Below, piece after piece: positions 5,189 to 39,160 of a stretch of 41,262 nt of DNA. The notes below the pieces were generated by a model. The model worked only from the letters and a program-made list of their open reading frames with translations. It searched no databases and was not told the DNA's origin. The position numbers and the translations under genes were made by a program. Origin of the DNA: a virus. The stretch's first letter is position 1. Each line of letters opens with the position of its first letter. The stretch spans positions 1-41,262 of IMG/VR virus record IMGVR_UViG_3300008459_000116. One strand, 5' to 3'.

Positions 5189-5425
5189 ATGCCACAACTT
5201 AATCGTAAACAACGCAGAGCATTAGGAAAAATGGTTAACAAAAAAGCAGCTTCGTCAATCGATCTTATGTTAAACCTTGGAGATCATTGCTTGACTTGTC
5301 GCAAACCGTTTGATAGAATGTCAAAAGAAATGGCCAATACATGGTTTATAGAAGTGTTTAAGGAAGATGCTATAACCCACTTATATTGTCCAGAATGTTA
5401 CCCAAAGAGAGGTCAAAATGAATGA
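5189..5425 (+). CDS. Small zinc-ribbon-like protein, 78 aa
   Basis: Two CxxC pairs (CLTC and CPEC, about 32 residues apart) suggest a zinc-binding fold; the N-terminus is basic (LNRKQRRALGKMVNKK). RBS GGAGGATAT. The stop overlaps the start of the IMPDH/GMPR gene by 8 nt, implying translational coupling. Role unknown. Confidence 0.75.
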   Translation: MPQLNRKQRRALGKMVNKKAASSIDLMLNLGDHCLTCRKPFDRMSKEMANTWFIEVFKEDAITHLYCPECYPKRGQNE

Positions 5426-6440
5426 AACGTTTTCTTATGATGATGTTCTGCTAGTGCCAAAGTATTCAGAGGTTGAAAGTCGTTCACAAGTAAGCCTAGA
5501 TTCTAAGCTAGGATCAAATCTAGAGTTTAAGACGCCAATTATTGCTAGCCCGATGGATACTGTAAGTGGTTTTCAAATGGCAATAGAGCTATCAAAATTG
5601 GGTGGGGTAGCAATCATCCACCGCTATAATTCTATCGAAGAGCAAGCTGATATTGTACGGGCAGTAAAACGCGAGGGCGAACGTGTTGGTGCTGCCGTTG
5701 GCAGTACAGGCGATTATATGGATCGCGTAACCGCTCTATATAATGCTGGTGTTGATTTTATTTGTATTGATGTAGCACACGGTCACCATATTAATGTTTA
5801 TCGAGCTATTAGGGCTATACGCGATCATTATGGCCCAGCTATACATATTATGGCTGGCAATGTAGCAACATCCGAAGCTTTTGAAGCCCTCCAGACTTGG
5901 GGTGCCGACTCAATCCGCGTAGGTATTGGTGGCGGTAGCATTTGCTCTACCCGCATCCAAACAGGTCATGGCGTACCAAATCTATCAGCTATTATGGATT
6001 GCTCAACCGTAGCTAGAACCGCAGCATTAATTGCTGATGGCGGTATCAAAAATGCTGGTGATGCGGTCAAGGCACTTGCTGCTGGTGCTGACTTTGTAAT
6101 GCTAGGATCGATTCTAGCGGGTACAGATGAGGCTCCCGGCCAAGTTGTGGAGTCTGTTCTACACGGCATGAAGATGAAAAGCTACCGTGGTATGGCAAGC
6201 CGTGAAGCCCAAGAGGATTGGCGGGGTAAGTCATCCGCTCCAGAAGGTATTGCAACAATGGTGCCATATAAGGGTCCAGTATCTAATATATTTAATGATC
6301 TTGTTGGTAATATTAAAAGCGGTTTATCATATACTGGCGCTGTAAACATTGGTGGTCTACAGGCAAGATCAGAGTTTATTCGGCAAACAAGTGCCGGTCA
6401 GCATGAAAGCTCTACTCATATTCTTAGCAGAGTTCCCTAA
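5418..6440 (+). CDS. guaB: IMP dehydrogenase / GMP reductase family, no CBS domain
   Basis: 340-residue TIM-barrel enzyme of purine interconversion. SYDDVLLVP at the start, PIIASPMDTV, the catalytic Cys176 loop GGGSICSTR, the phosphate-binding IADGGI, and C-terminal VPYKGPV are family hallmarks. IMPDH makes XMP from IMP; GMP reductase runs GMP to IMP. Length and the missing CBS pair fit GMP reductase or a minimal IMPDH; the YRGMASREA flap and the ESSTH end look more IMPDH-like, so I leave the reaction open. The symbol is provisional. A PurA homologue is encoded at 21741, pointing to phage control of purine supply. Confidence 0.9.
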   Translation: MNETFSYDDVLLVPKYSEVESRSQVSLDSKLGSNLEFKTPIIASPMDTVSGFQMAIELSKLGGVAIIHRYNSIEEQADIVRAVKREGERVGAAVGSTGDYMDRVTALYNAGVDFICIDVAHGHHINVYRAIRAIRDHYGPAIHIMAGNVATSEAFEALQTWGADSIRVGIGGGSICSTRIQTGHGVPNLSAIMDCSTVARTAALIADGGIKNAGDAVKALAAGADFVMLGSILAGTDEAPGQVVESVLHGMKMKSYRGMASREAQEDWRGKSSAPEGIATMVPYKGPVSNIFNDLVGNIKSGLSYTGAVNIGGLQARSEFIRQTSAGQHESSTHILSRVP

Positions 6441-12143: not shown

Positions 12144-13724
12144 ATGGGTCGAGTTTATAGTAAGCAAAGCGATTTAAATAATAAAATTGTTGAAGGTGTT
12201 AAAAAACTAAGTGAAGCGGTAGGTGTAACTTTAGGTCCAAAAGGACGTAACGTTGTTATACATCCAAAAGGTAAACAGCCATTCATAACCAAGGATGGTG
12301 TAACCGTTGCTTCACATGTACATTTAGAAGACCCCTTTGAGAATGTTGGGGCACAAGTTCTAAAGCAAGTATCGCAACGTACTGTTGAGGATTGTGGTGA
12401 CGGTACAACGACAAGCACTGTTCTAGCAAGCGCAATCCTCATTAAGTCACATAAATATATTACGGCTGGTTCTTCACCTGTTGATCTGCGCCGTGGTATG
12501 GAACGTGCTACCGAAGAGATCGTAACTAATCTAAAAAAACTATCAAAACCTGTGCGCGACATTAGCGAAATTGAAAACATCGCAACAATCTCAGCAAACG
12601 GTGATCGTAAGATTGGCAAGCTAGTTGCTACTGCTATTGATAAGGCCGGTATTGATGGTGCAGTTTCTATTGAAGAAGGACGTTCACAGGAAACAACTCT
12701 TGATATTGTAGAAGGCTTCCAGTTTGATTCTGGTTTTATTTCACCGCAATTTATTAATGACGAGCGTAAAGGCTCAATGCGTTACGAGAATGCTCTTGTG
12801 CTTGTAACTGATCACCATATCGAGAACGTAGACCAGATCTGGAATATCCTACAGCAAGTAGCGAATGCTAATAAGCCATTTATTATTGTAGGCGAGAGCA
12901 TCGAAGGCCAAGCCCTAGCTGCGCTTATTATGAACGCTGTACGTGGTACAATGCGTGTAGCAGCTATCAAGGCACCGAGATATGGACAGGAGCGTAGAAA
13001 CATTCTAGCCGATCTTGCTGTTGCAGTTGGTGCTACATTTATTTCTAAGGAAAGTGGATTACTATTATCAGAAGTTAAACTATCTGATCTTGGTATTGTA
13101 AAGAGCGTAGAAGCACTAAAGAATTGGTCTACATTTGTTGGTGGCAAAGGTAAGCTAGAAGAAATTGAAAAGCGCATTGAATCACTGAAGGCCGAAATTA
13201 GTCAAACAGATGACCTTGAGGATTGCAAACGTATCCAAGATAGAATCTCTCGCCTAGCATCAGGTGTTGCTATTATACGTGTAGGCGGCGTAACAGAAGT
13301 AGATATGATTGAGCGTAAGCACCGCATTGAAGATGCCCTAAGCGCCGTTAAAAGCGCCCAACAAGAGGGCGTACTTCCCGGTGGTGGTATTGCACTGCTA
13401 CGAGCCTCCAGAAATATTCAAAAGCAAAGTGGTCACAGGGATGAAGACTTTGGCGCTCAAATTATTATTGAGGCTTGCGAAGCTCCTATACGTAAGATAT
13501 CAGAAAACTGTGGATTGCCAACAGATGTTATAATTGCATCCTTATTTGATGTAGAAAAGTGTGGTGGTGATTGGGGTGGCTATAATTTTGCCTTAGAAGA
13601 GTATGTAAGGATGGATGCTGCGGGTATCGTAGATCCAGCAAAAGTTACTCGCTGTGCCCTACAAAATGCAGTATCGGCAGCTTCTACTCTTATGACAACA
13701 AATTATGCGATTGTAGAAATATAA
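12144..13724 (+). CDS. groEL: GroEL-like chaperonin (HSP60)
   Basis: 526 residues, close to the normal 540. ATP site: VTLGPKGRNV and CGDGTTTSTVLA; catalytic Asp in RIEDAL following VTEVDMIERKH; PGGGIALLR near the end. The apical loop reads GFISPQFIN where E. coli has GYLSPYFIN, so the Tyr203 position is Gln. The Gly-Gly-Met C-terminal tail is absent (ends NYAIVEI). No GroES gene is in the window. Phage GroELs elsewhere help fold phage proteins, some without co-chaperonin. RBS GGAGGAATA. No promoter seen directly upstream, so probably transcribed with the preceding genes. Confidence 0.95.
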   Translation: MGRVYSKQSDLNNKIVEGVKKLSEAVGVTLGPKGRNVVIHPKGKQPFITKDGVTVASHVHLEDPFENVGAQVLKQVSQRTVEDCGDGTTTSTVLASAILIKSHKYITAGSSPVDLRRGMERATEEIVTNLKKLSKPVRDISEIENIATISANGDRKIGKLVATAIDKAGIDGAVSIEEGRSQETTLDIVEGFQFDSGFISPQFINDERKGSMRYENALVLVTDHHIENVDQIWNILQQVANANKPFIIVGESIEGQALAALIMNAVRGTMRVAAIKAPRYGQERRNILADLAVAVGATFISKESGLLLSEVKLSDLGIVKSVEALKNWSTFVGGKGKLEEIEKRIESLKAEISQTDDLEDCKRIQDRISRLASGVAIIRVGGVTEVDMIERKHRIEDALSAVKSAQQEGVLPGGGIALLRASRNIQKQSGHRDEDFGAQIIIEACEAPIRKISENCGLPTDVIIASLFDVEKCGGDWGGYNFALEEYVRMDAAGIVDPAKVTRCALQNAVSAASTLMTTNYAIVEI

Positions 13725-21740: not shown

Positions 21741-22748
21741 ATGTCAATAGCATATGCAGATGTAATTGTTGATCTACAACAAGGCGATAGCGGCAAGGGT
21801 AAGGTCGCACATCACCTTTGTAAAATTAATGACTATACCCATGTTATAAGGTACAATGGATCGAATAATGCCGGGCATACAATTTATCATGAGGGTAAGA
21901 AAATTGTAACCCATGCAATCCCGATTGGTGTTGTACATGGAATTAAAAGTATTATCGGTCCCGGCTGTGTTGTTAATGCAGAACACTTCTTTCAAGAACT
22001 AAAGGAGCTTCAAGATGCTGGTATTAAAACTGATGGGCTTGTTTTCATTGCCAATAACGCGCACGTCATTACTCCCGAACATCTCGCGGAGGACCGACAA
22101 GATAACACTATCGGAACAACCAAGCGTGGAAACGGTCCAGCCTACCGCGACAAGTACAGCCGTAAGGGCATACGAGCGATGGATGTACCAGAACTAAAGC
22201 CATACCTAATTGATATCTACGAGGAACTACATGAGAAATATGGACGCCATGCTAGAATTCTTTTTGAAGGCGCGCAAGGTTTTGGTTTGGATGTGGATTG
22301 GGGCGATTACCCTTATGTTACTTCATCACATTGCACAGTAGGTAGCGCAATCCTAAATGGTGTACCACCACAATATATTCGTCACGTATGGGGTGTTGCT
22401 AAGATTTACGAAACCTATGTTGGTGCCAAGTCATTTGAACCACCAGATAAGATATTTAAAGAGATCCGTGAACTTGGTAAAGAGTACGGTGCAACAACTG
22501 GCCGTCCCCGCCAATGCAACTGGCTTGATATAAAGATGGTCCGCAAGGCCGCAATCATTAATGGTGTTACAGATATTGTATTCAACAAGATGGATATTCT
22601 TGCACAGATTGGTGAGTGGAAGCTTTATGACGATCAGGGCGCAATTAGAGAATTCGCTAATGAAGATGCAATGAAGCGTTATATCTATAACTATCTGCCA
22701 GACTCTATCAAGCATTATGTGTGGTCTGACAACCCAGATGGTTTCTAG
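21741..22748 (+). CDS. purA: Adenylosuccinate synthetase family (PurA, or PurZ-type variant)
   Basis: 335 residues, shorter than bacterial PurA (about 430) and near the length of archaeal and phage PurA/PurZ proteins. Visible motifs: P-loop-like QQGDSGKGK (13-21; the Asp that acts as general base in PurA is Asp16, while the usual Glu after it is Ser), NNAGHT with catalytic His46, IGTTKRGNGPAY, FEGAQGFGLD, YPYVTSS, TTGRPRQCNW. PurA joins IMP and Asp using GTP; PurZ does this on dGMP towards 2-aminoadenine. No DatZ or MazZ partner is in the window, so PurA chemistry is the default. RBS GGAGGACGG. Confidence 0.9.
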   Translation: MSIAYADVIVDLQQGDSGKGKVAHHLCKINDYTHVIRYNGSNNAGHTIYHEGKKIVTHAIPIGVVHGIKSIIGPGCVVNAEHFFQELKELQDAGIKTDGLVFIANNAHVITPEHLAEDRQDNTIGTTKRGNGPAYRDKYSRKGIRAMDVPELKPYLIDIYEELHEKYGRHARILFEGAQGFGLDVDWGDYPYVTSSHCTVGSAILNGVPPQYIRHVWGVAKIYETYVGAKSFEPPDKIFKEIRELGKEYGATTGRPRQCNWLDIKMVRKAAIINGVTDIVFNKMDILAQIGEWKLYDDQGAIREFANEDAMKRYIYNYLPDSIKHYVWSDNPDGF

Positions 22749-26402: not shown

Positions 26403-26431
26403 TTGACACATAAACTATTCTACTGTACTAT
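26403..26431 (+). promoter_or_regulatory. Sigma70 promoter of the VGDIW-family array
   Basis: TTGACA (26403), 17 nt, TACTAT (26426). Only 6 nt separate the -10 from the ATG at 26438, so the transcript should be leaderless or nearly so. Confidence 0.9.
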
Positions 26432-26437
26432 CTCAGC

Positions 26438-26632
26438 ATGAGTAACGCCATCAAGCCACAAGTTGGTGATATCATTGGTGGTAAGCTCACCAATTATTAT
26501 TTTCTCGTTCTTATTGTTGAGCGCGATGTGATATCGGAATGGTATCTGTGTCTTAATTTGATGACGGGCGAAAAAGAGATTCTTGGATATTTCAACGAAA
26601 TGGCTAGTACCGCTTGGGAGATATTGGCATGA
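26438..26632 (+). CDS. VGDIW-family protein 1, 64 aa
   Basis: First gene of the array. Opening KPQVGDIIGG, then YYFLVLIVER, WYLCLNLMTGEKE: the family pattern is (Q/K)VGD(I/L)(W/I/Y), a YxLVL strand, a variable loop, a strand ending in x-L-x-x-G, and an aromatic-rich short C-terminus. I read this as a small SH3-like beta-barrel; the opening recalls MazF/PemK proteins (GDIW then VLVL), without their catalytic residues. Start is leaderless by promoter position. Its end overlaps the next start as ATGA. Confidence 0.75.
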   Translation: MSNAIKPQVGDIIGGKLTNYYFLVLIVERDVISEWYLCLNLMTGEKEILGYFNEMASTAWEILA

Positions 26633-26850
26633 GTAAGAAGCCAAAGTATAAAGTTGGGCAAGTGATTATTTCTACCCAACCACTTGAAACCTGTATGATA
26701 ACAGATATCTTAATCTATGAAAACTATGCCGTTAAATGGTTTTATGTGGATGATAAAGCAAATGAAGTATACCATACGCCTAGACTTTCATTTTATGTAG
26801 CACATAAATATTTTATGGAGATAGAAAAATTTGACTCCTCCAAACTTTAA
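26629..26850 (+). CDS. VGDIW-related protein 2 (KVGQVI subtype), 73 aa
   Basis: Opens KPKYKVGQVIIS instead of VGDIW and pairs best with protein 11 at 28553 (QKYKAGQVLRS). Body ITDILIYENYAVKWFYVDD is strand-rich. RBS GGAGATATT. A second subtype in the same array, probably of the same barrel fold. Confidence 0.65.
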   Translation: MSKKPKYKVGQVIISTQPLETCMITDILIYENYAVKWFYVDDKANEVYHTPRLSFYVAHKYFMEIEKFDSSKL

Positions 26851-27040
26851 AGTTGCTGATATCGTAACACCAAAAAAGTTTACAACTGCCCATAAAGATG
26901 ACGGACCATATATAATGGTTATGCAGATATGCAACGACCATAATTATTTTCATACTTATTTCCTTATGGATTTAAATGATGCGTCAAAATATTACGAAGA
27001 TATAGAATATCTTGATGCCTATTATATAAAGGTGGCATGA
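26831..27040 (+). CDS. VGDIW-family protein 3, 69 aa, TTG start
   Basis: TTG at 26831 with GGAGATAG upstream; overlaps the previous gene by 20 nt. NFKVADIVTPKK, YIMVMQIC, YFLMDLNDAS follow the family plan, and the C-terminus YYIKVA carries the recurrent KVA ending. The stop and the next start share ATGATG. Confidence 0.65.
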   Translation: MTPPNFKVADIVTPKKFTTAHKDDGPYIMVMQICNDHNYFHTYFLMDLNDASKYYEDIEYLDAYYIKVA

Positions 27041-27216
27041 TGCGATTCCGTATTGGCGACATATACCAGCTTGGTGAATTTCACTATCTTGTTCTTGGAC
27101 TAATAAATTTAGACTTTGAAAGCTCTAATAGATATCTAACCCTAAACCTTGAAAAAGGTATTGTAAGTCGTCCTTTAGCTTGGTATGCAGATCAGAGCGG
27201 AGTATTTGTAACCTAA
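27040..27216 (+). CDS. VGDIW-family protein 4, 58 aa
   Basis: Among the shortest members: MRFRIGDIYQLG, FHYLVLGLIN, RYLTLNLEKG. The ATG at 27040 overlaps the last base of the previous stop. Nearly bare core of the family, useful for defining the domain: about 58 residues suffice. Confidence 0.7.
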   Translation: MRFRIGDIYQLGEFHYLVLGLINLDFESSNRYLTLNLEKGIVSRPLAWYADQSGVFVT

Positions 27217-27416
27217 TGCGTAGAAGAGATCATCCACAAGTTGGAGATTTATGGGCCAACAGCGATAGCAGTTCTGTTTTTATAGTTTTAGAAAAAACAT
27301 TTTGTAAATCATGCAATGATTGGGAACTTATAGTTCTGTTGAATGGCGAAAAGCGAACTGTTTATTATGATAAAGACTTTAAAAAATTAGACGGACAATA
27401 TTGGAAACTAACATGA
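27216..27416 (+). CDS. VGDIW-family protein 5, 66 aa
   Basis: Starts at TAATG 27216. HPQVGDLWANS, SVFIVLEKTF, two Cys (CKSC), ELIVLLNGEKR, end QYWKLT. Family member with a loop containing CxxC. Stop overlaps the next ATG as ATGA. Confidence 0.7.
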   Translation: MRRRDHPQVGDLWANSDSSSVFIVLEKTFCKSCNDWELIVLLNGEKRTVYYDKDFKKLDGQYWKLT

Positions 27417-27619
27417 CATATCCATGCGGCAAAGGTCATCCACATAATACCGAACAGGGCATGAAACGTTGCAATTTAAAATATGCCGATAAGCGTATTG
27501 AACGCCAGATGAAGAAGGGGCCACCAATCTATCAAGAGGTTGTCTATGACCCACCCTTAGTTGTTGACAAGGGCGGCATAGCTGTGATAGTATATCGTTC
27601 AGCAGTGAGGATTGCATAA
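27413..27619 (+). CDS. Small Cys/His protein inside the array, 68 aa
   Basis: Not of the VGDIW pattern. YPCGKGHPHNTEQGMKRC could bind a metal (Cys, three His, Cys). The C-terminus ends AVRIA, echoing the array's terminal motif. ATG 27413 within ATGA overlap; ends TAATG with the next. A weaker internal promoter (TTGACA, N18, TAGTAT, 27564-27593) lies in its 3' part. Confidence 0.6.
   Translation: MTYPCGKGHPHNTEQGMKRCNLKYADKRIERQMKKGPPIYQEVVYDPPLVVDKGGIAVIVYRSAVRIA
27564..27593 (+). promoter_or_regulatory. Possible internal promoter of the array
   Basis: TTGACA (27564), 18 nt, TAGTAT (27588), 25 nt upstream of the 27619 gene. Lies inside a coding sequence; may re-initiate transcription of the second half of the array. 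Confidence 0.5.
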
Positions 27620-27807
27620 TGTTCAATGTAGCCGACATATGGGAATATGATACAGGCATGCAAGGAACAAAGCATTACTTTCTACTCCTACAAAACAATG
27701 GTACACCACCACATTGGACATCTATTAATCTAAGCACAGGTAAGACCAGCTCCATCTTTATCGTAAAGACCGAAACAGGCCGGTTCAGATGGAAGAAGGT
27801 AGCATGA
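27619..27807 (+). CDS. VGDIW-family protein 6, 62 aa
   Basis: MFNVADIWEYDTG, KHYFLLLQNNG, HWTSINLSTGK, C-terminus RWKKVA. Gly of the motif is Ala here, as in protein 3. Overlaps the next start through GCATGATG. Confidence 0.7.
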   Translation: MFNVADIWEYDTGMQGTKHYFLLLQNNGTPPHWTSINLSTGKTSSIFIVKTETGRFRWKKVA

Positions 27808-28001
27808 TGCAGGTAAAAGTTGGCGACATCATAGGCTTACGTAGATGGGATTCCGATGGCCAAACTATCGAATGTGATATCTATTACCTTATTCTTAAAA
27901 CGCGTAATAGATTTCGATACCTAGCGTTATTTTTAAATGATGGTACACTAACAGAACTAGATAAAAGTTATGTTAGGAAGTATGCTGTAAAGGTGGTATG
28001 A
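27804..28001 (+). CDS. VGDIW-family protein 7, 65 aa
   Basis: Start in ATGATG (27804 or 27807). QVKVGDIIGLRRW, IYYLILKTRN, FRYLALFLNDGT, C-terminus AVKVV. Preceded by GGAAGAAGG as RBS. Confidence 0.7.
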   Translation: MMQVKVGDIIGLRRWDSDGQTIECDIYYLILKTRNRFRYLALFLNDGTLTELDKSYVRKYAVKVV

Positions 28002-28204
28002 TGTACAAGATGATCCCCGGCGAAGTATACTGTTGGACAAAAAATTGGGAAAAGCATCCCGATGAACCAGAATATAACTACTTCATGGTACTAGAAAACA
28101 AATGGGGAGCGGTACTTGTACAGTTCCTTATGGATAACCGCCGTGTAAATTATGCAGAGGCAACATTCAAGGACAACGCCCAATATCTCCGAAAGGTCGA
28201 GTGA
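27998..28204 (+). CDS. VGDIW-family protein 8 (divergent), 68 aa
   Basis: ATGATG start. KMIPGEVYCW takes the place of VGDIW, YNYFMVLENKW the LVL strand, VLVQFLMDNRR the third block; ends YLRKVE. Divergent but collinear with the family. Confidence 0.65.
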   Translation: MMYKMIPGEVYCWTKNWEKHPDEPEYNYFMVLENKWGAVLVQFLMDNRRVNYAEATFKDNAQYLRKVE

Positions 28205-28398
28205 TGAAGTTCCAAGTGGGCGACATATTAGAAATAAAAGCAACAGAATATTCCCGACCATTTCATCTGCTTGTCCTAGCATTTTATGGTTATTCTGCAA
28301 AGTTTGAAGAATATACTGTTATCTATCTTGAAGAAGGCCTAACAACAAATACCCGTTTTTGGACTACAGACAATATTATTGTAAGAGTTGTAGCATGA
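28204..28398 (+). CDS. VGDIW-family protein 9, 64 aa
   Basis: ATG 28204 inside TGATG; an in-frame GTG just before is possible. KFQVGDILEIKA, FHLLVLAFYG, YTVIYLEEGL, C-terminus VRVVA. Confidence 0.7.
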   Translation: MKFQVGDILEIKATEYSRPFHLLVLAFYGYSAKFEEYTVIYLEEGLTTNTRFWTTDNIIVRVVA

Positions 28399-28571
28399 AT
28401 CAACCCGAAGTTGGCGACATATGGGTATGGAGGGGGTTAGAACATTACCTCCTGTTAGAACGGGAGCAGATAAGCTATAATGTATTTACAGCAATTTATT
28501 TACAAGAAGGGGAGCTAATGGTAAATGTGCCAATAGACCCAAAGGATCCAACATGGACAAAGTATGCATAA
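28395..28571 (+). CDS. VGDIW-family protein 10, 58 aa
   Basis: ATG 28395 in ATGA with the previous stop. NQPEVGDIWVW is closest to the consensus opening; EHYLLLERE, FTAIYLQEGE, C-terminus WTKYA. Overlaps the next gene by 19 nt. Confidence 0.75.
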   Translation: MNQPEVGDIWVWRGLEHYLLLEREQISYNVFTAIYLQEGELMVNVPIDPKDPTWTKYA

Positions 28572-28813
28572 ACCAAAAGTATAAGGCGGGGCAAGTCCTA
28601 AGATCAAAGTATTGCCTAGGTAGACCACCAATTAAAATACTATATGTCTACCCACCGTATAACGGGAAGCTATCAAGGGATCCACTTTATAGGGTAAAGT
28701 TCCTTGGCAAGCATAAACCATTTGTCAATAAAGACTTGTTCCATCAATCAACCCTAAACCACTACTATGAGATAGTACCAGTACCAGTAGGAGAGGGAGG
28801 AGGGGCACCATGA
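28553..28813 (+). CDS. VGDIW-related protein 11 (KAGQVL subtype), 86 aa
   Basis: QKYKAGQVLRSKY, IKILYVYPPYN, LYRVKFLGK: aligns with protein 2 at 26629 rather than with the main subtype. The end is Gly/Pro-rich (VPVPVGEGGGAP). Stop overlaps the next start as ATGA. Confidence 0.65.
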   Translation: MDKVCINQKYKAGQVLRSKYCLGRPPIKILYVYPPYNGKLSRDPLYRVKFLGKHKPFVNKDLFHQSTLNHYYEIVPVPVGEGGGAP

Positions 28814-29124
28814 CATACTACAGATATGATACGGGCGACATAGTAGCATACATAAAGGATAAGCCAATGATGATCCTGCAAAGGGATGGCTTCAAGAAAG
28901 ATGTAAATGGTGAAGTCTTTACCCTAGATGTAGCATATCTTGTCTTAAACCTAACAGATGGTAAGAAGTCCCTACTAAGCAGGGATTGGATAGACCAATA
29001 TTGTTCCCGTATTGAAGACCTAGAAGACGGTCAACCAACAACCCTAGAAGCCCAAGAGGAATCCCTACGCCAAGCCCTAGAGAATCCACACCAACTTAAA
29101 CATAAAGGTTGGCCCACATACTAG
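28810..29124 (+). CDS. VGDIW-family protein 12 with extended C-terminus, 104 aa
   Basis: YDTGDIVAYIK, PMMILQRDG, AYLVLNLTDGKKS give the family core, followed by about 40 extra residues that are Glu/Gln-rich (EAQEESLRQALENPHQL). Last gene of the array; base composition becomes purine-rich at its end. RBS GGAGGAGGGGC. Confidence 0.7.
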   Translation: MTYYRYDTGDIVAYIKDKPMMILQRDGFKKDVNGEVFTLDVAYLVLNLTDGKKSLLSRDWIDQYCSRIEDLEDGQPTTLEAQEESLRQALENPHQLKHKGWPTY

Positions 29125-29870
29125 GAGTAGGAGGAGGGGTAGTAGGAGGGTAGTAGTAGGGGCGGCATACTACCAAATATAATAGATATACATCCAGTAC
29201 TACAAGTAAGACTAATAGTACCACTACCCCCAGCCCCAGTAGGAGGGGAGGAGGTATAGATAATACCCGTAGGAGGTAGCCCTATGCCATAGGAGGAGTA
29301 GGGGAGGGGAGTCAAGCCCTATAGAGAAAAAACTATAGAACGAACCCTCTGCCCCACCACTTGTTCAAAACCCCACAGAGGCACCGCGAAGGGTGCAAAT
29401 GGTGTGCCAACCGCCAACCCATACCATATATGGTGGGTGGCTAGAGGATATAGAAAATATCTATAAACATCGGGAAAATAAAGAACTTGACGATTAGGGG
29501 TATCATATGATAACTTGAGGGGACCACGGTTATGCTTTTTCCCCCTGTGACAAAATGCCACACCCACGATTAACACACGTTAACCGCCCGTAACCATTAG
29601 CTTTTTTTTATCTAAACTGCCACTATGACATCGCGGTCATAGCCTCACCCGCCTTGGAAATCCGCCCTTTAGACATAAAAATGCTCCCTACCCTATGCTA
29701 TACTCTAGCATAGGTATAATCCGGTGTCAACCGGTGAACAAATAGGGGAAAACCTTGTGATTATCGGGACATAGCGCACCTATATTGTATCGTCATTGTT
29801 TAGTAGTATACTCTATCGTTATTGTAAGGTCAAGTACAATGATATTGAGAACTATTCTCAAAATCGGGAG

Positions 29871-29915
29871 AAAATGGGGGGTGACGGGGGCCAAGCGCCA
29901 CCAGCCCCCTTTTTT
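29871..29915. repeat. GC-rich terminator-like repeat, copy 1
   Basis: AAAATGGGGGG ... CCCCCTTTTTT, first of twelve copies of the right-arm inverted repeat. The stem is G/C-run based and ends in T-tracts on both strands. Confidence 0.7.
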
Positions 29916-29916
29916 G

Positions 29917-29962
29917 GAAAATGGGGGTTCACAGCCCCCGGCCCCCACAGCCCCCCACTTTT
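29917..29962. repeat. GC-rich terminator-like repeat, copy 2
   Basis: GAAAATGGGGG ... CAGCCCCCCACTTTTC, in tandem with copy 1; the inner part has a CCCCCGGCCCCC variant of the central GGGACCGGCCCC. Confidence 0.7.
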
Positions 29963-29973
29963 CACCGACGCAT

Positions 29974-30012
29974 GAAAAAGCCCCCCGCTACCCTTTCGGG
30001 CAACAGGGGGCC
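29974..30012 (-). terminator. Terminator of the MoxR transcript (minus strand)
   Basis: Read on the minus strand: GCCCCC, an inner CCCG-AAA-GGG hairpin, GGGGGGC, then TTTTT; 14 nt beyond the stop of the MoxR gene. Confidence 0.8.
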
Positions 30013-30026
30013 ATTCATTGTGCGGA

Positions 30027-31103
30027 TTACTTCTTGTTCGCCTTCATAACGTCGATGATATAATCCTTCACCGTCTTACCCTCGACCGAAACCTTGTGGA
30101 AATCAAGGACGAACTTCAGCATATCCTTATTGCTGTTAATATCGGTATAAAACTTCATCGCCGCTTCGGAGGGCAACTTAAAGAAGAATCGGGCGATGTT
30201 TTCCTTCTCCTGAGTCGAGAGAGCGGGGGTCAACCGCTTGGACTGAATCAACTTCTCGACAAGGGCAAGGTTATCGTTCAACTTAAAGCCCTTCGTCTTA
30301 TCCAGCCGCCCCGCGAGAATATCCTCGACCGTCACCTGCGACTCATACTTCTGGACGAAATCCTTAAGCGAAACCGCCGCCTCGAAACCAACGAAACCAA
30401 GGCCGATATGATAAATCTTCTGCGCGTTGGCCTTGGCCTTATCGCCGTCCGCGAGAATATCAGCCTTCACCAGCGCATCGTTATAACGGAACCATGAACG
30501 GCGCGAGGGATAAATCTTATTAGGCTCAAACTCCCCCTTATGCTCAAGGTGCGACTTGTTCTGGTTAAGGAAGTCCCAAACCATCGGGTGAATCTTGCCG
30601 TTAGCGTAGGAAAGGAAATCCTCCTCGCTAGGCTCAAGGTCGAACACGGTCCAGCGGTCCAACTCAGCGGGGTCCATATCGTTCACGGCATACTGCGCCC
30701 CGTGCGTGCCACCGTTAACAGCGGCGAAAATAAGGGTATCGGGATGCAGACGGTGGCCGTTAATGGTGCGGGAGTCGGTCAACTGGAAAATACCCTGCCG
30801 AACCTCGGTCGTCGCACGGTCAATCTCGTCAAGGAACAGGACAACGGGCTTCTCGCACGCCTCCTTGTACCAATCGGGCGGGTTCCAAGCGGTACGGTCG
30901 CCGTTAATAACAGGCAGACCAACAAGGTCGCCCTCAGTCATCTGCGATGCACGGCGCTCGACAACGGGCATACCAACAGAGGCGGCAAACTGATAAACAG
31001 TCTCGCTCTTACCCATGCCGTGCTTACCGCGAATCATCACGGGATAACGGGCGTCCGTAATGTGCTTGACAACGCTGCCGAACGTCTTAAAGTCGATACC
31101 CAT
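30027..31103 (-). CDS. MoxR-type AAA+ ATPase
   Basis: 358 residues from the ATG at 31103, which has GAGGTAGG upstream; an earlier in-frame ATG at 31133 lies in the loop of the leader hairpin and lacks one. Walker A GKHGMGKS (26-33), Walker B VVLFLDEID (87-95), sensor region FAAVNGG, and LDRWTVFDL. MoxR ATPases work with VWA-domain partners to remodel or activate other protein complexes; such a partner is encoded next door at 31340, in its own unit on the same strand. Target in the phage cycle unknown. Confidence 0.9.
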   Translation of the reverse strand: MGIDFKTFGSVVKHITDARYPVMIRGKHGMGKSETVYQFAASVGMPVVERRASQMTEGDLVGLPVINGDRTAWNPPDWYKEACEKPVVLFLDEIDRATTEVRQGIFQLTDSRTINGHRLHPDTLIFAAVNGGTHGAQYAVNDMDPAELDRWTVFDLEPSEEDFLSYANGKIHPMVWDFLNQNKSHLEHKGEFEPNKIYPSRRSWFRYNDALVKADILADGDKAKANAQKIYHIGLGFVGFEAAVSLKDFVQKYESQVTVEDILAGRLDKTKGFKLNDNLALVEKLIQSKRLTPALSTQEKENIARFFFKLPSEAAMKFYTDINSNKDMLKFVLDFHKVSVEGKTVKDYIIDVMKANKK

Positions 31104-31150
31104 AGTGCCTACCTCGTTTTGGTGACGCTCCATGCGTCAACCGTTTGGAG

Positions 31151-31179
31151 AGAATAACCTAGTGCTGGCGGGATTGCAA
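31151..31179 (-). promoter_or_regulatory. Promoter of the MoxR gene with leader hairpin
   Basis: Minus strand TTGCAA (31174-31179), 17 nt, TATTCT (31151-31156). The leader has GACGC-ATGGA-GCGTC (31124-31138), a perfect 5-bp hairpin with an ATGGA loop. Confidence 0.65.
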
Positions 31180-31270
31180 GCACTTTTTTTAGGTTCCCGT
31201 CGCGGCCCCCTGTTGCAGCCAACGAACAGGGAGGGTTATAGCCCAGAATCGGGCGGGGGTCAAGCGGAAA

Positions 31271-31317
31271 GAAATGGGGGTCAGCGGGGGTCGGCCCCTA
31301 TTGCCCCCCACTTTCGC
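31271..31317. repeat. GC-rich terminator-like repeat, copy 3
   Basis: GAAATGGGGG .. GGGGGTCGGCCCC .. CCCCCCACTTTC. Lies between the VWA gene end and the MoxR promoter. Confidence 0.75.
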
Positions 31318-31339
31318 AGGGGGCGGGGCTTGCTATTGT

Positions 31340-32560
31340 TTACCCTTTAACCTTGTTCTTAATCGGAATAACCCGCTCATTAGTCTTGAAATAGGGGTTT
31401 TCCGCACCGTCCATATCGGTCATCCACATACGACGAACACGCGAGGGCTTAGGCGCGGGAGCCTGCATATCAGTCAGTACGATATGCCCATCATATTCGC
31501 GGTGCTTGTTAACGTATTCCGTAGGGGCGTCGAAATCGGTGCCGCCGCACATAACACGTTCCTTCTTGCGCCGCTCGCCCTTCTTCCACACATAAATCTT
31601 ATCCTCTCCGACACGGGTATCGAATGGGATAATGGTGAACGATGCCAGTTTGGCAAGGTTATCCAACTCAGCGTAAAAGAGGGAAAGCATTTCATCCGAA
31701 ACGCTGCCGCTCTGGTCAATCGAAATGGCGATATTAGCCGTTCGATTAGTCTTTTTACCAGCGTGGATATAGGGGAAGCGGCGATTAATACGCTTCACCG
31801 TATTCTGCTTGGTCGAACGCTGCGCGTTGCCGATAAACATACGGAGGACAGCCTTCCAATCAACCGTACCATTAACGAAACGCATAATCTCCTTCCGCAT
31901 ATCCTGCGGAATCTTTCCCCAACCATTCTCGCTGGACTTCTGGGCCTCCTTAACAGCCTCGCCAACCGCTTCACGCAGACGCTCACGCGCCATATCCCGA
32001 ACGTCCTGCGGGATAGGGTTTTCGCCATTACCCTCGCCCCAACCGCCGTGGTCGTCAAAGTTACCGCAATCGCAAGGCTCGCCGCCCCCCTCGCCCTCAC
32101 CAGCGGAGTGATTGCCGTCACACTTGCTATCATTTCCCCCCTTGTTATCCTGCTCCAACAGTTTATAATACGCCTCTGCGGAGAGGTAGTTCTCATACCC
32201 AAACTTTTCGGGCATCACGGCGAAATCGGGCAGTTCACCCTTAAGGTGGCAGTTAATCGCCATATCGGTAGCGTAGTTCCAACGCTTGCTAATCTTGCGA
32301 CCATCGGGCGAACGCTTGAGACAATGCTCAAGGACAAGGTGATAAAGTTCATGCTTAATAACGCCGATACGGTGATTATCGGGCAGACCGCCCATAAACT
32401 TCTCGTTATAGACCAACTCAAACCGCCCGTCCTCAGTAACCCGCACGCCAGCGGTAGGGATGTTAGCCACCGCACGCTTCTCCAAATAGCGGGAAACAAC
32501 CGCGAAGAACGTATCGCGGATAAGCAGACGGTACATATCTTTTTCCAAATCGTAAGCCAT
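31340..32560 (-). CDS. VWA-like protein with HExxH metallopeptidase motif
   Basis: 406 residues. N-terminal domain has HELYH (70-74), a zinc-peptidase motif. A Gly/Asp/Cys-rich linker (140-180) includes EPCDCGN. The C-terminal domain has the MIDAS-type DQSGS (282-286) and a later ISIDQ/VLTDMQAP arrangement typical of VWA-like domains. This combination matches the DUF2201-type 'VWA-like predicted metallopeptidase' proteins, which are often paired with MoxR ATPases. With the adjacent MoxR gene it forms a two-protein AAA+/VWA module. Own promoter and leader hairpin. Confidence 0.88.
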   Translation of the reverse strand: MAYDLEKDMYRLLIRDTFFAVVSRYLEKRAVANIPTAGVRVTEDGRFELVYNEKFMGGLPDNHRIGVIKHELYHLVLEHCLKRSPDGRKISKRWNYATDMAINCHLKGELPDFAVMPEKFGYENYLSAEAYYKLLEQDNKGGNDSKCDGNHSAGEGEGGGEPCDCGNFDDHGGWGEGNGENPIPQDVRDMARERLREAVGEAVKEAQKSSENGWGKIPQDMRKEIMRFVNGTVDWKAVLRMFIGNAQRSTKQNTVKRINRRFPYIHAGKKTNRTANIAISIDQSGSVSDEMLSLFYAELDNLAKLASFTIIPFDTRVGEDKIYVWKKGERRKKERVMCGGTDFDAPTEYVNKHREYDGHIVLTDMQAPAPKPSRVRRMWMTDMDGAENPYFKTNERVIPIKNKVKG

Positions 32561-33570: not shown

Positions 33571-33756
33571 CTATTGGACAAAGTTGCAATGGACTGTAAA
33601 GTGCGGCAGATAAGCATGATCTATTATGCCCTGTTCAAGTATTAACATTGTATAGCCGTGGTCCCCATACATCCCCATTCTGTAGTCTTCTTCCAGAACA
33701 AGATAGTGAAATTTACTAGACTTATTATACCAGATATCACCTACTTGGGGTTTCAT
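33571..33756 (-). CDS. VGDIW-family protein 13, 61 aa
   Basis: KPQVGDIWYNKSS, FHYLVLEEDY, YTMLILEQGI: a near-consensus family member on the minus strand. Its ATG is only 2 nt from the CCA end of tRNA-Arg, and its Shine-Dalgarno CGAGG lies in the 3' strand of the tRNA acceptor stem. Confidence 0.75.
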   Translation of the reverse strand: MKPQVGDIWYNKSSKFHYLVLEEDYRMGMYGDHGYTMLILEQGIIDHAYLPHFTVHCNFVQ

Positions 33757-33758
33757 AA

Positions 33759-33835
33759 TGGCGACCTCGGTAGGACTTGAACCTACAACCTAGCGGGTAG
33801 AAGCCGCTTGCTCTATCCAGTTGAGCTACGAGGCC
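33759..33835 (-). tRNA. tRNA-Arg (UCU)
   Basis: Acceptor GGCCTCG/CGAGGTC with one G-U pair, D-arm GCTC..GAGC, anticodon stem AGCGG/CCGCT with loop CTTCTAC (UCU, reads AGA), T-loop GTTCAAG context, encoded CCA. Sits directly upstream of a protein gene in the same transcript. Confidence 0.92.
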
Positions 33836-33843
33836 ACAAAAGG

Positions 33844-33895
33844 GTTCTCACTTCTCTTTAGACGTTCGCGACCGTCCATTGTCCATCGTGAGAAC
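33844..33895 (-). ncRNA. Possible structured RNA between tRNA-Arg and the minihelix
   Basis: A perfect 8-bp terminal stem GTTCTCAC/GTGAGAAC encloses 36 nt with an inner GACG/CGTC stem. It could be a processing signal or a remnant tRNA-like element. Confidence 0.4.
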
Positions 33896-33899
33896 TTAT

Positions 33900-33943
33900 T
33901 GGTGAGGGAGGTGGGATTTGAACCCACAACTAACGGCTCCCTC
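33900..33943 (-). ncRNA. tRNA minihelix (acceptor and T-arm only, with CCA)
   Basis: Minus strand: GAGGGAG, 9-nt linker, T-arm GTGGG-TTCAAAT-CCCAC, CTCCCTC, A, CCA. Acceptor stem (7 bp) and T stem (5 bp) are perfect, yet D-arm and anticodon arm are absent; only 44 nt. Either a deletion relic or a functional tRNA mimic. Confidence 0.7.
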
Positions 33944-33950
33944 TATAAAT

Positions 33951-34026
33951 TGGTGGGTCGTGTCCGAGTCGAACGGACAACCACTTCCTTAAAAGGGAAA
34001 TGCTCTGCCAATTGAGCTAACGACCC
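33951..34026 (-). tRNA. tRNA-Lys (UUU)
   Basis: Acceptor GGGTCGT/ACGACCC, anticodon loop CTTTTAA (UUU), T-arm GTCCG-TTCGACT-CGGAC, A73 and encoded CCA. Confidence 0.95.
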
Positions 34027-34043
34027 GTAAATACTAACAAAAT

Positions 34044-34130
34044 TGGTGGGGATAGTCGGAATCGAACCGACAAGACCTTTCGGTCGGCAGATTTTAAGTC
34101 TGCTGTGTTTACCTATTTCACCATATCCCC
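34044..34130 (-). tRNA. tRNA-Leu (UAA)
   Basis: 87 nt with long variable arm (GACCGAAAGGTC), acceptor GGGGATA/TATCCCC, anticodon stem GCAGA/TCTGC with loop CTTAAAA (UAA), T-loop TTCGATT, encoded CCA. Confidence 0.95.
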
Positions 34131-34131
34131 T

Positions 34132-34207
34132 TGGTGGTCCCGGCGGGATTTGAACCCGCGATCTCCCGCTTATAAGGCAGGTGCCCTAACCGCTAGGCTA
34201 CAGGACC
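34132..34207 (-). tRNA. tRNA-Ile (UAU)
   Basis: Acceptor GGTCCTG/CGGGACC, anticodon loop CTTATAA with UAU (reads AUA directly), T-arm GCGGG-TTCAAAT-CCCGC, encoded CCA. One base separates it from the preceding tRNA, and it follows the 34232 gene by 24 nt, so a polycistronic transcript is likely. Confidence 0.93.
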
Positions 34208-34785: not shown

Positions 34786-35532
34786 CTACTTCTTGGCACG
34801 CTTCTTGCGTTCATGCAGTTTAATGATACGTTCGGGAACACCCTTAATATCGGACGAGCCAATCCAAAGAACATTGACAAGGCGCGAACCTTTGCCAGCA
34901 CGGCTACGACGGTGAACGTCCTCCGTCATCTGCATAACGGTACCAATACGGTCGGTCAACTTATCGGGGGTATTACTGCCGTCATAATAGGGGTCATATC
35001 GCCAGTTGCCAACATGGGGCTTGCGGAGAACAATAAGGTCGCCTTCCTCAAAGACGCTCTCGCGCTTAACCTCGCGGAACTTCTTAACATTCCAATCGCC
35101 CATGACACGCCAGAACATATGGGCATCAACGGGGCGTTCCTCCCAAGAGGTATCCCAACCATCGCCCCCCTTATAAACCCAAGAACCGCCCGGTCGCTGA
35201 ATATACTGGTAGGTACTACGCATACCGTACTGGTAAATCTCCTTGATATCGTCGCGGCTATCAAACCAAGCAAGGAGGTCTTGCTCATATTGAGCATACT
35301 GCTTGGATTCGGTCATAACAAGGCGTGCAAGATAATCATGTTGATTCGGGGTAAGCGAACCCTTCTGCTTGTAGGCGTCAGTCATGCTCTGTGTTGTAAA
35401 GCAGACGTTATCACCAGTACCCTTTCGCTTGTTGTTCATCTGCTCGCCAAGTGCTACAAGGTCGGCAGTAGGCAGTTTGCGAAGAACCTCAAGGTCAAAG
35501 TGCTTGAAATCAATCTCATATTGCGCGGCCAT
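34786..35532 (-). CDS. Hypothetical protein with C-terminal SH3-like region, 248 aa
   Basis: ATG 35532 (MAAQYEIDFKHFD) has CAAGGAGTACGAC before it; the longer ORF crosses the promoter and repeat. N-terminal half helical (LRKLPTADLVALGEQMNNKRKG). C-terminal part has FEEGDLIVLRKPHVGN, RIGTVMQMTED and LVNVLWIGSSD, which read like a small barrel with a KOW-type turn, and a Lys/Arg tail. Unrecognised; nucleic-acid binding is plausible. Confidence 0.75.
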   Translation of the reverse strand: MAAQYEIDFKHFDLEVLRKLPTADLVALGEQMNNKRKGTGDNVCFTTQSMTDAYKQKGSLTPNQHDYLARLVMTESKQYAQYEQDLLAWFDSRDDIKEIYQYGMRSTYQYIQRPGGSWVYKGGDGWDTSWEERPVDAHMFWRVMGDWNVKKFREVKRESVFEEGDLIVLRKPHVGNWRYDPYYDGSNTPDKLTDRIGTVMQMTEDVHRRSRAGKGSRLVNVLWIGSSDIKGVPERIIKLHERKKRAKK

Positions 35533-35569
35533 TGTCGTACTCCTTGCTGCCCCATGCAGCGTGAGAAGG

Positions 35570-35598
35570 ATAGTAGCGGAAGATGCGTCAGCGGTCAA
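35570..35598 (-). promoter_or_regulatory. Promoter of the 35532 gene with leader hairpin
   Basis: Minus strand TTGACC (35593-35598), 17 nt, TACTAT (35570-35575). Leader has GCTGC-ATGGG-GCAGC (35546-35560 region), a perfect 5-bp hairpin. Confidence 0.82.
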
Positions 35599-35602
35599 GA
35601 GG

Positions 35603-35648
35603 AAAGAAATGGTGGTCAGCAGGGGCCGACCCCCACCAACCCCCATTA
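35603..35648. repeat. GC-rich terminator-like repeat, copy 7
   Basis: AAGAAATGGTGG .. AGGGGCCGACCCCC .. CCCCCATTAAG. Overlaps the last codon of the 35646 gene, the only copy touching a gene. Confidence 0.75.
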
Positions 35649-35864
35649 AGCAACATGGAGGCGGTAGAAGGGCTTGCCATCATTGGCTGTACATTCGTTC
35701 GGGTCATTCCAATCTACAAGGCACTCTTCTCGCCATAGTTTGCCATTTTCAAGTGCTAGTACTATGAAATAATAATCATCCTGATCGGATTGCAGGACAA
35801 GGTTATGACCACCGTTAGCATCCTGCCAGATATCCCCAACGCATGGGATAACTAGGTCTGTCAT
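35646..35864 (-). CDS. VGDIW-family protein 14, 72 aa
   Basis: VIPCVGDIWQDAN, GHNLVLQSDQ, YFIVLALENGK, C-terminus YRLHVA. RBS GGAGGCCAG. Last gene of a seven-gene minus-strand operon; start overlaps the upstream stop as TGATG. Confidence 0.75.
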   Translation of the reverse strand: MTDLVIPCVGDIWQDANGGHNLVLQSDQDDYYFIVLALENGKLWREECLVDWNDPNECTANDGKPFYRLHVA

Positions 35865-36206: not shown

Positions 36207-36544
36207 TATGCCTTCCCCTTGTGGTTGACACCGCCCAGATTGACGGCTACCGTCTGAAACTTAATGTCTGGCGTGGATGCCAGCTTGCCCATCTGACACG
36301 ATTTACCCTTGTAGAGGCCGCTGTTGTTCTTGAAATACTCCAAGTAGCGCTCCCTGTCAAGGGCATTCTGGAACTTGAGGATAGAAATACTGGCCTGTTT
36401 ACCATCAGCACCGGCAACACCAGCATAGCGCGGAGTATTCTCTTCTGAGCAATCTACGCAATGGGTAGACAATCCGCCGATTCGACGCTTCTCGCGGGAG
36501 TAGGGGTCGAAGGGGGCATCACATTCAGTACATGTTCTCGTCAT
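36206..36544 (-). CDS. Zinc-ribbon-like protein, 112 aa
   Basis: CTEC (5-8) and CVDC (29-32) are two CxxC pairs 20 residues apart, a classic zinc ribbon; the sequence between is basic (SREKRRIGG). C-terminal domain (SISILKFQNALDRERYLEYF) unrecognised. Coupled by ATGA to the upstream gene and TAATG to the downstream one. Confidence 0.75.
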   Translation of the reverse strand: MTRTCTECDAPFDPYSREKRRIGGLSTHCVDCSEENTPRYAGVAGADGKQASISILKFQNALDRERYLEYFKNNSGLYKGKSCQMGKLASTPDIKFQTVAVNLGGVNHKGKA

Positions 36545-36750
36545 ACTACTTTATCTCCATTGTAACACAGCACATCTGCGTAAACCTCGTACAACTGGCC
36601 AGACTCTAGCACAAGACAACGGGCAGCGCAAGACTCGTTTCGATACTGAACTGCTTCAAAAAACTGGAGGACTAGGAGGTGGTACTTCCCCCATCCATCT
36701 TCTTCGTTGTGGATACTGATACGGTAGATGTCACCAATCTCCACGGTCAT
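36541..36750 (-). CDS. VGDIW-family protein 15, 69 aa
   Basis: MTVEIGDIYRIS, KYHLLVLQFFE, RCLVLESGQL, C-terminus GDKVV. ATG 36750 overlaps the upstream stop as ATGA. Confidence 0.75.
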   Translation of the reverse strand: MTVEIGDIYRISIHNEEDGWGKYHLLVLQFFEAVQYRNESCAARCLVLESGQLYEVYADVLCYNGDKVV

Positions 36751-37052
36751 GCTATCCTCGTCCAATCGTCAAGTTCAAAGTTCATACAGAACGATAGCAC
36801 AATCCCGGCCTCAAGGCAAAGGGTAGTCCAACTAAAACCATCATTTTCAGACCAACCTTCAATGATATACGGCTCCAGCAAAAGATAATGATATTCCAAG
36901 TATCCATCAAGCGTAATCATACGGTTACGCCATATTTCACCAACATGGGGCATATCCTCTTCCCTAAACTCCCATGCTTTCTCTTCCCTCTTCTTCTTAG
37001 GAGTATTAGGAGGCTTCTGCTTCCTTGGATGATTACGTGGGTGCTTGGGCAT
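36747..37052 (-). CDS. VGDIW-family protein 16 with basic N-terminal extension, 101 aa
   Basis: Residues 1-25 (MPKHPRNHPRKQK, PKKKREEK) form a basic Pro-rich tail that resembles the free 30-aa peptide at 33467. Then DMPHVGEIWRNRM, EYHYLLLEPY, TTLCLEAGIV, and the C-terminus WTRIA give the family domain. Suggests fusion of two elements that also occur separately. Start in TAATG. Confidence 0.72.
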   Translation of the reverse strand: MPKHPRNHPRKQKPPNTPKKKREEKAWEFREEDMPHVGEIWRNRMITLDGYLEYHYLLLEPYIIEGWSENDGFSWTTLCLEAGIVLSFCMNFELDDWTRIA

Positions 37053-37273
37053 TAGGCCACCTTCTTATAGTAGGCGCTGTTAGGAAAATCAATCCTATCC
37101 AATGACCAAGATTCCACCGAGCCAGTTTCAAGATGGAGATAGGTTACAGTAGTACGGGAGTAAAGATAAGGTTTAATCTCTAAGATAAGAGCATGGATGG
37201 GAACATTATACTCATGGATAGAGGATGTGTCCTTCAGCCAGATGTCACCGACCTGCATTGTGAACCGCGACAT
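37052..37273 (-). CDS. VGDIW-family protein 17, 73 aa, leaderless
   Basis: MQVGDIWLKDTSS, IHALILEIKP, TYLHLETGS, C-terminus YYKKVA. First gene of the operon. ATG 37273 lies 6 nt after the -10 box with no RBS; an internal ATG at 37258 is the alternative start. Confidence 0.72.
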   Translation of the reverse strand: MSRFTMQVGDIWLKDTSSIHEYNVPIHALILEIKPYLYSRTTVTYLHLETGSVESWSLDRIDFPNSAYYKKVA

Positions 37274-37279
37274 GGGTGA

Positions 37280-37308
37280 AGAATATAGGAGGGGGGCAGA
37301 GATGTCAA
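37280..37308 (-). promoter_or_regulatory. Promoter of the minus-strand VGDIW operon
   Basis: Minus strand TTGACA (37303-37308), 17 nt, TATTCT (37280-37285), 6 nt before ATG. TATATT at 15-nt spacing overlaps it. Confidence 0.8.
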
Positions 37309-38914: not shown

Positions 38915-38943
38915 TTGACACCAGCACGGGCAACGTGTATTGT
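38915..38943 (+). promoter_or_regulatory. Sigma70 promoter, leaderless start
   Basis: TTGACA (38915), 17 nt, TATTGT (38938); 7 nt later is ATG 38951. Confidence 0.88.
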
Positions 38944-38950
38944 CCCTCAC

Positions 38951-39160
38951 ATGGAAAACAGGATCAAGGTTGGTACGGTTGTTTGGCACATTTGTCCTAC
39001 CGAGTTGTTTCGCGGTCCCGGTACGGTAACAGGGCTTTTTCGTGAGTTTGACGTTGACTTCGCCACCGTGTTCTGGCAAGGTTCGTTGGTCACGTTCGAC
39101 CACAGGTTGACCAGCCTTATGACGCTGGCCGAAAAGGAGGGCGCACATGGCAACACATAG
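38951..39160 (+). CDS. Small SH3-like protein, 69 aa, leaderless
   Basis: MENRIKVGTVVWHICPTE, RGPGTVTGLFRE, ATVFWQGS, RLTSLMTLAE. The KVGTVVW opening and strand spacing suggest a small barrel, perhaps a distant relative of the VGDIW family. No RBS; the ATG coincides with the predicted transcript start. Overlaps the next gene by 14 nt. Confidence 0.68.
   Translation: MENRIKVGTVVWHICPTELFRGPGTVTGLFREFDVDFATVFWQGSLVTFDHRLTSLMTLAEKEGAHGNT

Follow-up and report, generated by a model that had tools for sequence, protein, structure and literature searches.

We analyzed the IMG/VR record IMGVR_UViG_3300008459_000116, a 41,262-base fragment from an uncultivated virus of bacteria (hereafter, the window). 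Thirteen open reading frames (ORFs) are present on its plus strand between 26438 and 29124, and nearly all of them overlap or abut their neighbors. Twelve of these 13 coupled genes and five minus-strand genes belong to a single family, amounting to at least 17 copies with a mean identity between copies of about 24%. Judging from the sequences, the family and its arrays extend through a whole phage lineage, together with a repeated boundary element. On balance, we lean toward viewing these arrays as an early-expressed, rapidly exchanged set of host-binding proteins with SH3/KOW-type barrels. The early timing, a separate target for each copy, and a role directed at the host or its defenses are what we infer from the observations below.

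Family membership and predicted fold

Membership was assessed with two profiles. The first, built from 12 seed members from the window and applied in a leave-one-out scheme, recovered all 12 seeds (E 1e-12 to 6e-4), and 0 of 1,000 shuffles scored as well. The second, built from proteins of related contigs without any window sequence, recognized all five minus-strand genes and 11 of the 13 in the array; for each, none of 2,000 shuffles scored as well. Gene 2 (26629; E 0.003) and gene 9 (27998/28010; E 0.038) gave its weakest matches. The profile missed gene 12 (28553), which joins the family solely through gene 2 (blastp E 6e-5). Gene 6 (27413-27619) had no match to the relatives-only profile and is the sole unrelated gene of the 13. 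A preliminary description had assigned at least ten of the 13 genes to one family, a slight understatement. It had also placed five further copies on the opposite strand; all five matched both profiles, and their ends were correct. The gene at 37052 more likely starts at 37273, which would give a 73-residue protein like its counterpart in the related contig L002 (labels of this type name related contigs).

Family genes and the non-member among them:
26438..26632, plus strand: array gene 1, SH3-like family member (both profiles)
26629..26850, plus strand: array gene 2, divergent family member (independent profile E 0.003, 0/2000 shuffles)
26831..27040, plus strand: array gene 3, family member with a TTG start (independent profile E 4e-8)
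27037..27216, plus strand: array gene 4, family member (both profiles)
27216..27416, plus strand: array gene 5, family member (both profiles)
27413..27619, plus strand: array gene 6, non-member within the same coupled run (no profile match)
27619..27807, plus strand: array gene 7, family member (both profiles)
27804..28001, plus strand: array gene 8, family member (both profiles; 63% identical to L002:14280)
27998..28204, plus strand: array gene 9, divergent family member (independent profile; 39% identical to L002:15900)
28201..28398, plus strand: array gene 10, family member (both profiles)
28395..28571, plus strand: array gene 11, family member (both profiles)
28553..28813, plus strand: array gene 12, linked through gene 2 alone (blastp E 6e-5; no profile match)
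28810..29124, plus strand: array gene 13, family member with a C-terminal extension (independent profile E 6e-4)
33571..33756, minus strand: family member adjoining a tRNA-Arg gene (both profiles)
35646..35864, minus strand: family member (both profiles)
36541..36750, minus strand: family member, counterpart of L002:3121, 52% identical (both profiles)
36747..37052, minus strand: family member with a basic N-terminal extension, counterpart of L002:2558 (both profiles)
37052..37273, minus strand: family member, first of the minus-strand run (both profiles; its last 68 residues are the modeled structure)

Four tRNA genes (Arg-TCT, Lys-TTT, Leu-TAA, and Ile-TAT) lie at 33759-34207, beside the family gene at 33571.

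Related contigs, also fragments, were collected through the neighboring MoxR-like ATPase and VWA-like genes that flank the array. We take them to be freshwater or marine, a loose judgment from the sample context. In the window, the MoxR-like AAA ATPase and a DUF2201 metallopeptidase/VWA-like gene occupy 30027-32560, and the pair stands beside arrays across the lineage. Near these genes, arrays of the same family also occur in three related contigs, with 32, 24, and 13 matches; the window has 14. When the 99 loci reached through MoxR/VWA genes were searched iteratively, they yielded a sister family of 1,002 ORFs, 887 of them distinct and 1,000 on the MoxR strand, with the consensus MKVGDLVRLKSG...GIVVEI...YKVLWFDGG...LEVISESR; the same search of reversed and shuffled ORFs returned zero matches. 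The window and sister families are related (profile-profile hhalign 89%, P 2e-6). Contigs of 120 to 205 kb have most of their copies in a single region, commonly 6 to 29 per record. Thus, an expansion that had been described as unusual in one phage is lineage-wide, with 13 to 32 copies in related phages and about 1,000 copies of the sister family.

Two further genes of the window are connected to the sister family:
34789..35052, minus strand: sister (VGDLV) family SH3-like domain fused to the C-terminus of the 34786-35646 protein (E 0.004, 0/2000 shuffles)
38951..39160, plus strand: more distant SH3-like gene of the KVGTVV type, 50% identical to L002:1258, itself a sister-family match (E 7e-5)

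Long fused proteins resembling the former are encoded at L002:4069-4905 and L009:18403-19047; the N-terminal part of the window protein had no match in Pfam.

An AlphaFold model of the window family was obtained from an alignment of 73 members, with the last 68 residues of the 37052-37273 protein as the target. It predicts a barrel of five strands, the last of which follows a short helical turn (pLDDT 87.8, pTM 0.73; strands at residues 6-9, 21-31, 35-42, and 48-52, then the short helix, then 64-66), which is the predicted topology of an SH3-like beta-barrel of the SH3/KOW type. Its matches in the PDB were SH3-like modules (the TraI insert, VapX, CarD, DUF1653, EF-P, and Tudor), none of them outstanding. 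The sister-family model has the same strand order (pLDDT 92.1), and its closest PDB structures were the KOW domain of Spt5 (Z 8.6), RPS4E, PsaE, and MutS2, with Z about 8. Barrels of PsaE and CAP-Gly scored about as high as the Spt5 KOW. For a modeled barrel this small, a Z of about 8 reflects a common arrangement and carries no functional meaning. About 20 small viral proteins within a single range of UniProt accessions (BFVD entries A0A516L... and A0A516M...) also match the sister-family model, the best of them with 29 to 38% identity and TM 0.8 to 0.9; they probably represent another array-bearing virus set.

Sequence searches assigned neither family to a curated one. The window-family consensus had no Pfam match at all. 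The sister-family consensus showed weak similarity to KOW (PF00467), DUF1918, DUF2158, and CarD_TRCF_RID, all small SH3-like barrels, with every score under the curated cut-off (12.1 bits versus 22.3 for KOW). Nothing convincing was found for the family in Pfam, PHROGs, NCBIfam, PADLOC, or the PDB sequences, and a tblastn search of 50,697 phage records with members and consensus sequences turned up no relatives, so no array-bearing isolate was identified. The preliminary description had also compared the proteins with MazF/PemK. No such match appeared in Pfam, in the PDB sequences, or among the structural matches listed (Foldseek, VIA), and the alignment held no evident conserved polar catalytic set beyond Gly-Asp. 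Its picture of divergent paralogs of one tiny domain in coupled genes stands, and the SH3/Tudor/KOW folds that it proposed for comparison agree with the five-stranded SH3-type barrels predicted for both families; the MazF/PemK relation gained no support from these searches.

The structural comparisons also bear on another explanation, which we consider unlikely: that the proteins are KOW/Tudor-type factors for transcription, translation, or the nucleoid and that each tunes RNA polymerase, ribosomes, or DNA. They would then work like T4 MotB, the NusG/Spt5 KOW, or the RNA-polymerase-binding domain of CarD, and not as diverse inhibitors. The proximity of the sister-family model to the KOW domains of Spt5 and MutS2 and to RPS4E is consistent with such a role, as are the subthreshold Pfam similarities to CarD_TRCF_RID and KOW. 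T4 MotB offers a precedent, being an early phage protein with a predicted KOW/SH3-like domain that binds DNA (PMC7827196); the likeness is one of description, and MotB is a single two-domain gene (KOW plus OB-fold) with no array. However, a Z near 8 says nothing about function in a barrel of this size, and the window clade is acidic (median pI 5.3, with 72% of members under 6), unlike nucleic-acid binders, which argues against general nucleic-acid binding. The sister family is split evenly.

Boundary element and gene exchange

In the sister family, 297 adjacent gene pairs overlap by exactly 14 nt. One element of about 33 bp supplies the ribosome site, the start, and the N-terminal KVGD of the downstream gene as well as the C-terminal SESR and the stop of the upstream gene. 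Its consensus, TGGAGGTnATCAGTGAAAGTCGGTGATTTGGT, reads LEVISESR-stop in the upstream frame and (M)KVGDLV in the downstream frame, with the ribosome site GGAGGT inside the LEV codons of the upstream gene. The first base of the start codon was always G or A (GTG or ATG), and this explains why SESR or NESR closes the upstream protein. In 297 of 297 overlapping cases, the KVGD Gly codon was GGT, compared with 205 of 296 others, because its T opens the upstream stop codon, which was TGA in 290 of the 297 overlaps. Thus, the GGTGAT codons for Gly-Asp that open each gene also provide the TGA stop of the preceding one. The boundary pattern was found in at least 120 stretches of IMG/VR; across about 85,000 species of bacteria and archaea, it occurred in just three contigs, each belonging to a metagenome-assembled genome.

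The boundary of the window clade is shorter and looser; AAGAAGGTAGCATGA, for example, encodes KKVA-stop and the next ATG. An ATGA overlap closes 31 of the 87 members of this clade, and a TAATG or TGATG overlap closes 18. A repeat covering the ribosome site, the stop, the start, and the VGDI codons occurs four times in the array:
27028..27064, plus strand: 37-nt boundary repeat, one of 4 copies, 65-73% identical
27795..27831, plus strand: second copy
28192..28228, plus strand: third copy
28386..28422, plus strand: fourth copy

The C-terminal KVA resembles ClpX C-motifs, and a protease tag was hence considered. Many cases follow from the boundary DNA AAGGTAGCATGA, which combines a ribosome site with ATGA. 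Twenty-six of 63 terminal Ala codons are other than GCA, and thus some constraint on the Ala residue remains.

Comparisons between related phages contained 20 clean insertions in arrays. Six of these had both breakpoints at array-gene starts, as opposed to 0.7 expected, and about half shared bases of the boundary element at the breakpoint (judged by eye). In L070 and L067, the left flank is 99.7% identical up to the boundary, after which L070 has exactly one extra gene, 184 bp in length and encoding VEVGDLVCPK...LEVLSESR. Within the window's own clade, L002 preserves the arrangement of the genes at 37052, 36747, and 36541 but has an extra family gene in each of the two gaps. A recent array-gene duplicate was found in L118 (2436-2602 and 4155-4339), where DNA stretches 83 to 90% identical lie about 1.7 kb apart. 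The dN/dS of shared array genes was 0.09 to 0.31 in 10 of 11 pairs and 0.53 in the closest pair. The shared copies are thus under purifying selection, weaker in most pairs than that on the large neighboring genes.

These data bear on two explanations that we regard as very improbable. Largely neutral tandem amplification, kept by easily recombining boundaries and spare genome space, would account for the L118 duplicate, since boundary repeats alone favor duplication; shared copies nevertheless retain open frames, ribosome sites, and dN/dS well under 1. An equally remote prospect is that the copies assemble together into one or more hetero-oligomeric particles, hence their translational coupling. 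Overlapping genes fit cotranslational assembly, and Sm-like proteins, which are also small SH3-like barrels, form hetero-rings. However, the models are without the N-terminal helix of Sm proteins, and copy number and gene content vary widely among close relatives, a variation incompatible with a fixed complex. Both explanations rank low because of gene turnover and purifying selection.

Candidate promoters and proposed role

Three sigma70-like candidate promoters precede SH3-like genes in the window:
26403..26431, plus strand: TTGACA-17-TACTAT, with the -10 ending 6 nt before the ATG of the 26438 gene (putative function)
37280..37308, minus strand: TTGACA-17-TATTCT, with the -10 ending 6 nt before the ATG at 37273 (putative function)
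38915..38943, plus strand: TTGACA-17-TATTGT, before the ATG at 38951 (putative function)

The first two are among the strongest sigma70-like sites of the region, and both head gene runs. Between 25200 and 38200, the window contains 39 sigma70-like sites, nearly double the 21 in shuffles (standard deviation, 4.7). Across the loci, the spacing from the -10 to the ATG peaks sharply at 6 nt (47 of 57). Of the 57 genes behind this geometry, 24 were SH3 genes by profile; at control distances, the proportions were 12 of 101 and 7 of 42. Such promoter geometry suggests that the host polymerase makes leaderless transcripts as infection begins. The leaderless consensus promoter also occurs, in perfect or near-perfect form, before genes for a 45-residue, strongly basic protein (MNKKKKIKLRNWLAIHAHFRKGAG...) at L066:5801, L067:5008, L070:4865, and L071:4844, with a shorter relative at L118:3706.

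In the scheme that we propose, host-type promoters would drive the arrays, and the genes would be translated as coupled mini-operons. The arrays would behave as gene cassettes whose boundaries are similar ribosome-site/stop/start elements; because of this similarity, recombination at boundaries could add, drop, or replace one whole gene and leave its neighbors unharmed. The most likely action of the proteins would be to bind host proteins, including those of defense, shortly after infection. Variable loops and the surface would set the target, and the array would be refreshed as hosts change. Host-type promoters at the heads of runs, purifying selection, and changing gene content indirectly support the idea of fast-evolving, host-directed proteins.

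A more specific form of this scheme, which we hold tentatively, at just short of even odds, is that large aquatic phages of one whole lineage keep exchangeable arsenals of about 10 to 35 plug-in SH3-barrel genes and, by recombination at any boundary, swap single genes and so retarget themselves against changing host proteins or defenses. The first codons of a cassette would double as the stop of the previous cassette, and its last codons would hold the next ribosome site. A narrower role, which strikes us as rather improbable, is that the arrays are anti-defense islands in which each copy inhibits or decoys one defense system and exchange tracks the defenses of local hosts. Small promoter-headed early genes are enriched in anti-defense genes in archaeal viruses (PMC11065993), T4 amplifies the inhibitor gene tifA through microhomology recombination (PMC9391042), and the content of the arrays here turns over between relatives. 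Nevertheless, no member matched a defense-related profile in a library that lists defense proteins and not their inhibitors.

Several points weigh against an exchanged, host-binding set in general. The clean insertions and deletions come from relatives, and the strongest cassette evidence lies outside the window, whose own clade has weakly conserved boundary DNA; that the window's array turned over as in the relatives is what we infer. The promoters are consensus matches, and the same geometry precedes other genes, such as the VWA gene of some relatives. Database searches linked the members to no function and to no curated family. Other barrels of the KOW type bind nucleic acids or are parts of stable complexes, which makes a nonadversarial role possible.

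Related systems and other genes of the virus

For the hyperplastic regions of T4-type phages, Arbiol in 2010 and Comeau in 2014 reportedly described promoter early stem-loop (PeSL) cassettes. As described in a later source, PeSLs are intergenic elements of a promoter and a stem-loop that shuffle small early genes in these phages (PMC4503421). On that account, the two systems share single-gene shuffling mediated by repeated expression signals that surround the small early genes of large phages. They differ in that the repeat here is the gene boundary itself: overlapping coding sequence contains the ribosome site, the start, and the stop. The cassettes here also all come from one domain family. 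Gain, loss, and shuffling of single genes through a repeated element were seen in the relatives, as clean single-gene insertions and deletions with boundary-element microhomology. A promoter and stem-loop between shuffled genes were not found; promoters occur at the heads of runs, and boundaries overlapping by 4 or 14 nt leave no room for such an element. The cassette form also recalls integron gene cassettes, which depend on an integrase and attC sites; the boundaries here consist of coding sequence.

Segmental amplification of tifA in T4, in which recombination at short sequences alters the copy number of a counter-defense gene (PMC9391042), and SegB-driven amplification of small counter-defense genes in T6 (PMC13096335) similarly change the copy number of small genes at short shared sequences. 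As described there, those are identical tandem copies under laboratory selection, whereas the copies here have diverged and are exchanged singly. The large aquatic cyanophage S-PM2 likewise has a block of many small orphan genes, the ORFanage, that is dispensable under laboratory conditions and for which the authors argue against PeSL shuffling (PMC4503421); unlike the present arrays, it is not reported as one paralogous family. None of the analogs found (PeSL, tifA, and archaeal anti-defense genes) had such a boundary design or a one-fold array of this size in our partial coverage of the literature.

Most genes of large environmental phages are small orphans, and hundreds here share one fold and one logic of expression and exchange. 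The DNA boundary motif makes such "hypothetical" genes findable, and the arrays could be mined for host- or defense-binding proteins. The dual-coded boundary is also a clear natural modular gene design, in which a cassette supplies its neighbor's stop and uses its neighbor's ribosome site.

Between the array and the converging operon that follows it, about 900 bp (29125-30026) hold no convincing gene. This gap contains repeats rich in GGAGG and a strong terminator-like hairpin on the minus strand (30012-29979). Elsewhere, the window encodes a DnaE-like polymerase III alpha subunit (32-2875; about 30% identity to known phages), a homolog of IMP dehydrogenase/GMP reductase (5418-6440; E 1e-111), and a phage-encoded GroEL (12144-13724) about 43% identical to the nearest phage copies. 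An adenylosuccinate synthetase homolog (21741-22748; E 7e-86) could be a PurZ-type enzyme of 2-aminoadenine DNA synthesis.

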